Part shown: in pieces, positions 1 through 3,775 of the stretch
How the letters are laid out: each line of letters opens with the position of its first letter
How positions within the stretch are numbered: position 1 is the first letter of the stretch
Source of the DNA: Faecalibacterium langellae
Lineage (GTDB): Bacteria; Bacillota; Clostridia; Oscillospirales; Ruminococcaceae
Direction: 5' to 3'
Assembly: GCF_002549775.1 (NCBI RefSeq)
Contig: NZ_NMTR01000021.1
Location: forward strand, 124,001 to 188,000
DNA length: 64,000 nucleotides
Program-made: the position numbers and the translations under genes
Notes under the pieces: generated by a model
Told to the model about the DNA's origin: nothing
What the model saw: only the letters and a program-made list of their open reading frames with translations
Databases searched by the model: none

Positions 1-876
<876 letters not shown>

Positions 877-1283: not shown

Positions 1284-1505
1284 TTAAGATGGTGGAAAGA
1301 ACAGGAGCACGACCAGAAACACCGCACCGGCGACGGCCATAAAAATGCCCTCGATCTGGGTGTAGCGAATGTATTTTTCAGAAGGTTCGGCCCGGTCGTA
1401 CCGCCAGCGGGTCTGCAAAGAGATGGCTTCTTCCGGCAGAAAAAACGAGAACAGCCCGAACCCGATGCAAACAAACAACAGCAGAATGAGAAGAATCGTG
1501 TCCAT
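1284..1505 (-). CDS. Small two-helix membrane protein
   Basis: A 73-residue protein with a hydrophobic N-terminal helix (about residues 3-24), a charged middle with WRYDRAEPSEKY, and a second hydrophobic helix near 52-70. It lies 9 bp after the next small membrane gene (1515-1805), suggesting co-transcription. The helix/charged-loop/helix pattern resembles small DUF proteins of clostridia, but no family is assigned and no function can be given. Confidence 0.6.
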   Translation of the reverse strand: MDTILLILLLFVCIGFGLFSFFLPEEAISLQTRWRYDRAEPSEKYIRYTQIEGIFMAVAGAVFLVVLLFFPPS

Positions 1506-2142: not shown

Positions 2143-2274
2143 GGAATGCACCTCCCATCTTTTTCCACAGTATACCACAGAAAAGTGCAAAAACAAAGGA
2201 CGGTATTCAACCGCGCAGCGTAAAATTTGCACAAATCGGACGTTGACTGTTGGTGAAAACAGCACAAAATAAAA

Positions 2275-2313
2275 CCAGCCGGACGATGCGGTTGCAAGCC
2301 ATCGTCCGGCTGG
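2275..2313 (-). terminator. Intrinsic terminator of the large RNA
   Basis: Perfect 14-bp stem (CCAGCCGGACGATG with its complement) and 11-nt loop, followed on the minus strand by a T-rich tract at 2266-2274. The stop of the nearest minus-strand gene is downstream, so it ends an RNA entering from the right. Confidence 0.85.
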
Positions 2314-2425
2314 ATCCTTACTTCTTCGGAGTCATAAGCCTCTCTCCCTGGGTTTTCTCATTTTCGGAGTAAGCGTTTCATAGGGTGACTCTCCTTGGAA
2401 ACTACTGGAAACTGAGAAACGATTT

Positions 2426-2568
2426 CAAGGGGACTGATTACTCTAGTACATTGGATTGACCCTTCTCTTAACTGATGGAGTGCGGCACCGAGATTCGGAA
2501 AATGAATTTCATATTACCACATTCTTTCGAGTTAGATTTGCTAAGGGGCATCTTACTCAGTACATTGG
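2426..2568 (-). repeat. Two copies of a 28-nt motif inside the large RNA
   Basis: On the minus strand both copies begin CCAATGTACT and end CCCCTTAG or CCCCTTG, with GAGTAA in the middle. They are at 2541-2568 and 2426-2454. Such internal duplication is common in modular structured RNAs; it is too short to be a mobile element. Confidence 0.7.
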
Positions 2569-2915
2569 TAGAACTCCTTTTCAGCTATTCAAATAAGCTT
2601 CTCCGTATTGCAGGTACTTTCATAAGAACCATCTCCGGCGGATCTATTTGAATTGCCTTGGGGTATTTTGTTTAACGACAGGTTGTCGTGTTTCGCGTTT
2701 TTGATGCTCAAGACCGGCTCATGTTTTGTTGTGTTTTTATACGGGGGAAACATCCCGTTTGTGGTGAGCCTCTGTTTTGCTTCTCAGCGAACCCCGACAG
2801 CCTGTCCCTGCTGTGCGGGTTCCATATCGACCATCGGTCTCGCTCCTTTCTGCTTCAAGTCAGCGGGATTAGCTCTCTCTTGAGCTTCTGCTGTACTTCT
2901 CTGGTTTCTGGCTTT

Positions 2916-2944
2916 ATTATACATATTCCTGAACGATTTGTCTA
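2916..2944 (-). promoter_or_regulatory. Promoter of the large RNA
   Basis: TAGACA (2939-2944), 17-bp spacer, consensus TATAAT (2916-2921) on the minus strand. One of the best sigma-A type promoters in the window, with transcription expected to start near 2909. Confidence 0.8.
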
Positions 2945-3227
2945 TTCGCAGAGTGCACAAGGATAGAAATATAAAATTGTGCAGTTCTTGAAAAACAGCA
3001 GATGGAACGTGCAAAATGCTGCTTTCTGCCGGCCTGTCCGGACGATCGGAACCTTTGGAGAGAAACTTTGTTCCCAGCAGGGAGGGGTGCTGGGGAACCA
3101 CAGCAAAGTTGCCCAGAAGTTCCGGGCCGTTTGTGGAGGATTTTACGCAAAACGGGAGAAAGTGTCCGCTGGGTATTATGTGATGGCTTCGTTTGTGCTA
3201 AAATAGCGCCAATGAATGGTAGTCGCC
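2945..3227. other. Gene-free stretch
   Basis: No credible reading frame with a ribosome site on either strand. An extended -10 like element (TGCTAAAAT, 3195-3203) points to the plus strand just ahead of the terminator at 3228. It may hold the leader of the DUF2798 gene, but no known riboswitch signature was recognised. Confidence 0.5.
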
Positions 3228-3267
3228 GCCGCCCCGCGAGATGAAAGTTTCGCGGGGCGGCTTTTTT
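3228..3267 (+). terminator. Strong terminator-like hairpin ahead of the DUF2798 gene
   Basis: A perfect 12-bp stem (GCCGCCCCGCGA with its complement) and six T residues. It sits only 43 bp upstream of the start at 3311, so it may act as an attenuator in that gene's leader or end a short upstream RNA. Confidence 0.75.
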
Positions 3268-3310: not shown

Positions 3311-3775
3311 ATGCCTAAAACTTTACCGGAACGTATCTTCTTTACCATTGTCATGGCTGCCATTATGGTGTATGGCATGATCGTTTACAATGTGGCGCTG
3401 AACACCAATGGCGTCACCAATGCCACCTTTGTGATGGCTTTGCATGAAATGCCCATTATGGTGCCCGTTGCCTGCGTGCTGGAATTTTTCGTGGTGGAGA
3501 AACTGGCCACCCGATTGGCGTTTATGTTCATGCGGCCCACAGATCGTCCGCAGTTCATCACCTATGCCATCTCTCTGATGATCGTGTGCATCATGTGCCC
3601 AGTGATGAGTCTGATCGCAACGGTGCTGTTTAAAGAACCCGGCTTTGGCACTTGGGTGCATACCTGGGGCTGCAATATGCCTATGGCACTGTGCTGGCAG
3701 ATGCTGTACTGCGGCCCGCTTGCCCGTGCCATCTTCCGGCTGGTGTTCCGCCGCAGCGCAAAACAGGCGGACTGA
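3311..3775 (+). CDS. DUF2798-family membrane protein
   Basis: A 154-residue protein with four hydrophobic segments (about residues 10-30, 40-62, 83-105 and 120-140), starting MPKTLPERIFFTIVM. The pattern, with MALHEMPIMVP and a paired repeat of two helices, fits the DUF2798 family of small membrane proteins of unknown role. The ATG at 3311 has a GGAG about 12 bases upstream; the long distance makes the start moderately certain. It stands alone between two hairpins and is separated from the ATP synthase operon by about 500 bp. Confidence 0.7.
   Translation: MPKTLPERIFFTIVMAAIMVYGMIVYNVALNTNGVTNATFVMALHEMPIMVPVACVLEFFVVEKLATRLAFMFMRPTDRPQFITYAISLMIVCIMCPVMSLIATVLFKEPGFGTWVHTWGCNMPMALCWQMLYCGPLARAIFRLVFRRSAKQAD

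Follow-up and report, generated by a model that had tools for sequence, protein, structure and literature searches.

A conserved, predicted stand-alone RNA of Faecalibacterium and related genera that carries an array of very short open reading frames

The locus and its transcription unit

The window considered here is a stretch of 64,000 nucleotides from Faecalibacterium langellae (contig NZ_NMTR01000021.1, positions 124,001 to 188,000), whose minus strand holds, between about 2909 and 2266, a unit that runs from a promoter to a terminator. On the promoter side, the opposite strand carries the atp operon, and metG starts about 1.7 kb downstream of the unit, preceded by a T-box leader at 630 to 868 (minus strand) that scores 92.2 bits (E 5e-21) against a gathering score of 93 and is thus missed at the default threshold. 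Among three short ORFs between the RNA and the metG region is that of a DUF6199 small protein (1284 to 1505, minus strand). On the plus strand, a strong terminator-like hairpin of 15 pairs (3228 to 3261) stands just outside the unit, and the protein at 3311 to 3775 has a sub-threshold match to DUF2798 (22.9 bits, cut-off 23.5). The features of the unit, other than its ORFs, are the following.

2266 to 2909, minus strand: whole RNA, from its predicted start near 2909 to the U-tract, with promoter and terminator; near-full-length blastn match in 14 genomes, its own included
2939 to 2951, minus strand: conserved element CTGCGAATAGACA, which overlaps the -35 box; its core TGCGAAT[AG]GA is also found upstream in other genera
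2916 to 2944, minus strand: promoter TAGACA-N17-TATAAT, with 11 of 12 consensus matches, kept in homologues
2871 to 2886, minus strand: 5' hairpin, 2 of 5 pairs with two-sided compensatory changes
2741 to 2758, minus strand: hairpin ACGGG-AUGUUUCC-CCCGU, with an AUG that lacks a Shine-Dalgarno sequence and a fixed frame; 98.6% of cells paired, no two-sided change
2275 to 2313, minus strand: intrinsic terminator stem-loop, an inverted repeat with two-sided changes in 7 of 15 pairs, followed by a U-tract at 2266 to 2274

An earlier note on this DNA had described a near-consensus promoter and a perfect terminator, and both descriptions hold. In the 14 full-length blastn homologues, the own sequence included, the -10 box is always TATAAT, the -35 box is TAGACA in 13 and TGGACA in one, and TGCGAA or TGCCAA precedes the -35 box. 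The element CTGCGAATAGACA has a single site in the own genome when at most one mismatch is allowed. The terminator stem pairs 2275 to 2288 with 2300 to 2313 as a 14-bp inverted repeat without mismatch and is followed on the minus strand by TTTTATTTT; its absence from the promoter and terminator scan is presumably due to its 11-nt loop, which exceeds the scanner's limit of 8. The loop region GCUUGCAACCGC (2288 to 2300, minus strand) is nearly constant in most Faecalibacterium homologues despite the changing stem. On these signals and their conservation, the predicted minus-strand unit is real.

The Rfam search proposed in the earlier note gave nothing above the gathering score within the unit. 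At E values up to 10, the single match inside it was mir-278 (18.6 bits against a gathering score of 55), and the covariance models of ROOL, OLE and GOLLD had no match there even at this setting. The view that this is an independent, conserved transcription unit, possibly of a new class, is supported by its predicted promoter and terminator, its homologues and the missing Rfam match. A long protein is rejected as its product: the open reading frame list holds no ORF of more than 100 amino acids wholly inside the unit, and the frame that opens at the AUG at 2753, without a Shine-Dalgarno sequence, runs for anything from 11 to 54 codons among 14 RNAs. As its AUG has neither a Shine-Dalgarno sequence nor a fixed frame, the hairpin at 2741 to 2758 was judged structural. 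The earlier claim that no credible protein gene is present is therefore right for long ORFs and does not hold for short ones, as seven conserved micro-ORFs are present.

Distribution and neighbourhood

Blastn with the unit found a match in 29 of 31 Faecalibacterium genomes and in all 22 of those that are at least 90% complete. One match, in genome G002 (38 nt, E 5e-4), was discounted since the surrounding sequence shows no feature of the unit, which is therefore counted in 28 of 31 genomes; the three without it are 77, 79 and 83% complete. The unit also occurs in records of Gemmiger, Subdoligranulum and Fournierella, sometimes in several copies. Two sequence models were used beyond this: R1, an ORF1 model built from the own genus only, and R2, a model of the 3' end. 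R2 matched 16 of 297 family genomes, 12 of which were judged real after reading and span 4 of 126 genera, the weak matches in G177, G193, G285 and G295 being rejected. In order-wide samples, R1 and R2 each matched 4 of 295 genomes, all of the own genus. A narrow probe for the two-codon unit described below matched 5 of 297 family genomes, all within the clade, and 0 of 341 genomes of the class; this probe also misses the own genome, so that its silence elsewhere is weak evidence of absence.

A pattern scan of named genomes gave 56 matches, with record titles naming Faecalibacterium, Gemmiger, Subdoligranulum, Fournierella and others, many of them uncultured. Of these, 53 show one or more other features of the unit; L112 and L125 have none and were set aside, and L103 also has none, but its sequence spans only 400 nt upstream and it is left as uncertain. 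Because the scan required most of the MTP motif, the constancy of that motif is not assessable from the 56 matches. The scan found three copies in Gemmiger formicilis ATCC 27749 and two in strain DFI.6.10. The terminal ORFs of the ATCC 27749 copies (L077, L090 and L104) differ, reading MTPKK or MTPII. Up to its last ORF, the RNA measures 0.45 to 1.5 kb across the family. L013 to L019 and L035 are long forms of about 1.05 to 1.1 kb with a second module of ORF2 plus a two-codon ORF, as in L013, where MKVPVWMQIFE and a stop are followed by MI and a stop. No phage, plasmid or viral contig matched the unit at the sensitivity used, and an origin in such elements was rejected on this basis.

Neighbours were examined in 19 stretches: 10 have argS upstream, 12 have metG downstream in the same orientation, and 7 have both; the remaining stretches are too short or have different neighbours. 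In some, metG follows close behind the RNA, as would be expected if the unit were a leader or attenuator for a downstream gene such as metG. This reading is nevertheless highly unlikely: the unit ends in a strong terminator that shows compensatory changes, metG in the window is preceded by a T-box of its own, and metG is inverted in L068, L077 and L096. Moreover, the extra Gemmiger copies L090, L095 and L104 have neither argS nor metG in the available stretch, so that the unit seems independent of these neighbours. Neither the 19 stretches nor the extra copies revealed a fixed downstream gene under its control. In the favoured reading, the unit is a stand-alone, chromosomally inherited RNA gene.

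An array of micro-ORFs

The unit carries seven tiny ORFs of 16, 12, 2, 14, 2, 7 and 5 codons, six of them with a clear Shine-Dalgarno sequence. From 5' to 3' they are the following, with counts that refer to 14 RNAs unless stated otherwise.

2784 to 2834, minus strand: ORF1, MVDMEPAQQGQAVGVR then stop; Shine-Dalgarno AAAGGAG at 2843 to 2849; inside its own predicted hairpin; 16 codons in 14/14
2585 to 2623, minus strand: ORF2, MKVPAIRRSLFE then stop; enclosed by the inverted repeat 2584 to 2595 / 2645 to 2656; stop column kept in 14/14
2557 to 2565, minus strand: first two-codon ORF, MY then stop (AUG-UAC-UGA); two codons in 14/14; stops TAA 9, TAG 4, TGA 1
2468 to 2512, minus strand: MKFI ORF, MKFIFRISVPHSIS then stop; weak Shine-Dalgarno score of -4.4; AUG in 14/14; stops TAA 9, TGA 5
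2443 to 2451, minus strand: second two-codon ORF, MY then stop (AUG-UAC-UAG); AUG in 14/14; two codons in 10/14, with three codons in two RNAs, five in one and fifteen in one
2358 to 2381, minus strand: MKRLLRK then stop; 7 codons in 9/14, 9 codons in 5/14; frame compensation in 46 of 58 3' regions
2318 to 2335, minus strand: MTPKK then stop; present in 28/28 loci of the genus

Counterparts of several of these can be followed through the wider family. ORF1 has one in 54 of 56 family RNAs, and among its 35 distinct sequences 32 have 16 codons and 3 have 15, while its residues differ greatly between genera. ORF2 ends in TAG in 6, TGA in 3 and TAA in 5 of the 14 RNAs and is 12, 11 or 10 codons long; its constant FE ending may be due to its position inside the inverted repeat. 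An SEK-type ORF occurs in the wider family in 23 distinct nine-residue forms (stops TAG 11, TGA 6, TAA 6) and was not found in 10 of the 56 RNAs searched. Relatives of the MTPKK ORF read MTP[KI][KIM] and end in TAA, TAG or TGA. The earlier note had also reported a duplicated 28-nt motif. The repeat search listed no such direct repeat, and what recurs instead is the two-codon ORF unit, whose exact core CCAAUGUACU lies at 2559 to 2568 and again at 2445 to 2454.

Conservation of starts and stops

The conservation of starts was read from an alignment (A4) of 14 RNAs, comprising the own sequence, 11 of the 13 other full-length homologues, L011 and L012. All seven ORF-starting AUGs are kept in 14/14; their Shine-Dalgarno scores are -5.5 or better except for one of -4.4. 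Conservation is lower for five other AUGs, found in 4, 6, 1, 9 and 1 of 14 RNAs, and the last of these scores -4.9; set against the kept MKFI AUG at -4.4, this shows that the Shine-Dalgarno score alone does not discriminate. Three AUGs without a Shine-Dalgarno sequence are kept as well, one inside ORF1 (14 of 14), one in the hairpin at 2741 to 2758 in a varying frame (14) and one at 2522 (12). The combination of Shine-Dalgarno sequence, AUG and an ORF of at most 16 codons occurs six times in the own RNA, against a mean of 0.78 in shuffled sequences, none of 300 of which reached six; for four other RNAs, 1, 4, 0 and 0 of 300 shuffles reached the observed number.

On the tree of the 14 RNAs, the type of stop changed 13 times: twice in ORF2, four times in the first two-codon ORF, three times in the MKFI ORF and four times in the second two-codon ORF, with no change in ORF1, the MKRLLRK ORF or MTPKK. 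For the four ORFs whose stops changed type, 14, 14, 12 and 10 of the 14 RNAs, respectively, share the stop column, and the two with a column of 14/14 hold 6 of the 13 changes.

A second line of evidence comes from the MKRLLRK-type ORF, which in the compared 3' regions is found to keep its end through compensating length changes. An AUG with a CCGAAAA(A) run and a stop directly after the run is present in 46 of 58 distinct 3' regions, the other 12 having no such run with an AUG. Where the AUG has an offset of 2 modulo 3 the run has four A (12 regions), and where it is 1 modulo 3 it has five (34 regions). Every listed AUG fits this rule in 32 of the 46; the other 14 hold a further AUG or A-run that does not fit, and there the fitting AUG was chosen with its Shine-Dalgarno sequence left unscored. 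The four-A state occurs in three groups, namely one Faecalibacterium clade; L020, L021 and L041; and Fournierella.

A third line comes from the two-codon ORFs. When units were picked by their Shine-Dalgarno hairpin and AUG, with the codons ignored, 49 distinct ones were obtained, 8 of which are the MKRLLRK-type ORF. Among the remaining 41, 36 stop at codon 3 (TAG 22, TAA 13, TGA 1) and five at codon 4 or 5 (MYR twice, MYQS twice, MYNE once). AUG-UAC-stop and AUG-AUU-stop recur, and codon 2 varies. No distinct two-codon unit came from 16 of the 56 RNAs, partly as theirs duplicates one already counted, and a list of 64 units for which a stop at codon 3 had been required beforehand was excluded from the evidence. 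Across the sequences compared, no property of this RNA is kept more widely than its fixed places for starting and stopping.

Such sites might also serve a more passive role. Minigenes and ribosome binding are discussed in the accessible part of PMC8708949 as protecting mRNA against ribonucleases, and it is conceivable that ribosome occupancy on strong Shine-Dalgarno sites, which are clear and conserved in the unit, only protects a long-lived regulatory RNA, with an unrecognised base-pairing or protein-binding segment as effector. We consider this distinctly improbable, as it leaves unexplained why stops directly after the second codon are kept.

Constraint on the peptides

For each ORF, synonymous and non-synonymous differences (given in this order) were counted in the reading frame and in both alternative frames.

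Faecalibacterium ORF1: 192/699 in frame; 223/741 and 145/808 in the other frames
Gemmiger ORF1 (MANFKDPIHHRRAWAC then stop): 91/77 in frame; 17/151 and 68/101
ORF2: 29/245 in frame; 30/224 and 22/278
SEK-type ORF: 68/998 in frame; 123/1004 and 57/1077
MKFI ORF: 49/128 in frame; 20/158 and 10/184
MKRLLRK ORF: 18/51 in frame; 15/42 and 8/53

MTPKK is invariant among the 14 RNAs and yields no synonymous test. Among the ORFs tested, only Gemmiger ORF1 and the MKFI ORF show clear conservation of the peptide sequence. These counts bear on the strongest competing explanation, that the unit is a polycistronic mRNA for functional micropeptides acting in trans as signals, inhibitors or ligands. The mostly synonymous changes of Gemmiger ORF1, the in-frame synonymous excess of the MKFI ORF (MKFI..PxSNS then stop) and the invariance of MTPKK favour a peptide function for some ORFs; in MTP[KI][KIM] the first three residues are kept with a CCA/CCG switch, although for most of these the search pattern itself prescribed the ATGACTCC part. 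Against micropeptides stand the Faecalibacterium ORF1 and ORF2, the SEK-type and the MKRLLRK ORFs, none of which shows an in-frame synonymous excess over both other frames, the strong divergence of ORF1 between genera, and the two-codon ORFs, which hold little sequence information and vary at codon 2. The ORFs are also too short for a usual signal peptide. We therefore regard micropeptides as the main function as unlikely, if a serious contender. Conservation of amino-acid sequence rather than of pairing, which the earlier note had named as telling against its structured RNA, is thus seen in two of the ORFs tested, whereas starts and stops are held far more widely. Taken together, starting and stopping may matter more than the peptides themselves.

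RNA structure

The unit folds with a predicted energy of -184.4 kcal/mol (z -2.07), and none of 20 shuffled sequences was equally stable. In six local helices, 98.5% of cells are paired, and 9 of 53 pairs show two-sided changes, against a shuffle mean of 3.0 and none of 500 shuffles reaching this number; all nine sit in the 5' hairpin or the terminator. The helices that cage the ORFs hardly vary, so that covariation neither supports nor refutes them, and the hairpins around the ORFs are predicted structures without covariation support. In single-sequence folds of ORF1, 32 of the 35 distinct sequences, by our reading, pair the flank of the Shine-Dalgarno sequence with the stop region (the exceptions are L016, L046 and L048), through GAGCGA with UCGCU in Faecalibacterium and AGGCUC.. 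with ..GGGCCU in Gemmiger. With z between -0.1 and -3.5, this cage shows no unusual stability in Gemmiger. An automatic cross-genus fold of the region (A3) gave only 4 pairs, in our view because the aligner misplaces the stems, and the single-sequence folds took its place.

Long-range pairing fares less well. The earlier note had proposed one long-range helix; in three taken from the consensus fold, 1 of 19 pairs shows a two-sided change, a number reached by 122 of 500 shuffles, and some pairs are lost in 2 of 14 RNAs. On the other side, 93.2% of their cells are paired against 91.9 in shuffles (none of 500 reaching it), and their covariation score was reached by 6 of 500. The long-range helix 12-17/356-361 was rejected, as 2 of its 6 pairs break in L011 and L012, where the codon UAC is AUC. 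The consensus fold of the whole RNA has two-sided changes in 15 of 120 pairs and a covariation term of -0.34, and many of its pairs never vary. The covariation check on homologues that had been suggested thus supports the 5' hairpin and the terminator and gives the long-range helices poor support.

The z score and the two-sided changes, both local and over the whole fold, would suit a purely structured non-coding RNA. We hold this to be very improbable, as the local changes are confined to the 5' hairpin and the terminator, the covariation term over the whole fold is only -0.34, and the evidence of frames and stops is left unexplained. The comparison with ornate large RNAs such as ROOL or OLE, drawn in the earlier note, holds for the size range; the unit is not ORF-free as far as tested, and much of its conservation concerns a Shine-Dalgarno sequence, an AUG, a short frame and any stop. 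Several GGA motifs near hairpins also recall a sponge for CsrA of the CsrB type. This was rejected as next to impossible, since a CsrA search gave 0 matches in the own genome (a control search matched 3 of 14 known genomes) and a sponge does not account for the ORFs.

A possible function

The overall anatomy, an RNA unit with micro-ORFs, is very likely right in our judgement. Comparative support covers the predicted promoter and terminator, the conserved starts, termination at any stop, the frame compensation and the 5' hairpin; the steps that lead from translation to a function are ones that we infer. Our preferred reading, to which we give a probability of roughly two in five, is that of a stand-alone RNA that would act through ribosomes starting and stopping on it, perhaps as a trap for ribosomes or initiator tRNA, or as a sensor of translation. 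Because starts and stops at fixed places are what is most widely kept, a translation-dependent RNA acting in trans is favoured over a peptide operon, an RNA of structure only and a leader.

The RNA would consist of consecutive modules, in several of which a small predicted hairpin contains the Shine-Dalgarno sequence and AUG of a very short ORF. Ribosomes would be loaded and released at each module, and the work would be done by these recurring rounds of initiation and termination more than by the peptides. Most likely the RNA would work in trans, where it would bind and cycle ribosomes, initiator tRNA and perhaps also peptidyl-tRNAs that have dropped off; alternatively, its fold and lifetime might report the translation state of the cell. 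A single, ordinary Pth gene in the own genome is no argument for or against peptidyl-tRNA drop-off. In its boldest form, which we find doubtful yet worth stating, the unit would belong to a new RNA class whose role is to undergo minimal bouts of translation again and again: a hairpin-gated array of two- to sixteen-codon ORFs would load, cycle and release ribosomes and initiator tRNA and in this way buffer or sense translational capacity in trans, the peptides being nearly irrelevant.

Comparison with known systems

Among open-licence papers, none was found that names this RNA or such a class, or that reports a stand-alone RNA with such ORFs in an array; Faecalibacterium is not mentioned in the main text of PMC8040213. 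A conserved RNA of a major human gut commensal for which no class was found would make the border between coding and non-coding RNA less sharp. As far as we know, AUG-NNN-stop units that are conserved with interchangeable stops are unusual natural evidence for selection on initiation followed by immediate termination, and the unit offers a ready system for asking what minimal ORFs do in cells. It also calls for caution, as ORF-length filters and structure-only searches can miss such genes.

Dual-function small RNAs such as RNAIII/hld and SgrS/SgrT carry one ORF of tens of codons. They resemble the present unit as independent, terminated RNAs with a small ORF, features that are here predicted from promoter and terminator signals, and differ from it in that the unit has seven ORFs of 2 to 16 codons. 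The T-box at 630 to 868 (minus strand) is a separate element before metG. The ornate RNAs ROOL, OLE and GOLLD (PMC12286853) are alike in the size range pointed out in the earlier note, whereas the unit has no Rfam match and much of what is conserved in it lies at the ORFs. Leader peptides and uORF motifs, such as those of ilvB and fthC in the accessible part of PMC11109978, share a conserved start and stop, a Shine-Dalgarno sequence and hairpins, but the unit lacks a consistently linked downstream main ORF; the same part discusses a uORF thought to respond to initiator tRNA. Two-codon minigenes, those of phage lambda bar (known here from reference titles in PMC8012679), axe-txe mg2 and LEE1, share a Shine-Dalgarno sequence, an AUG, one sense codon and a stop, a layout also present here (36 of 41 distinct units across the RNAs; 14/14 for the first two-codon ORF and 10/14 for the second). 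According to the accessible part of PMC8708949, the minigenes of axe-txe and LEE1 sit before a gene and act in cis, whereas here two-codon units recur inside a predicted stand-alone RNA and are conserved across genera.
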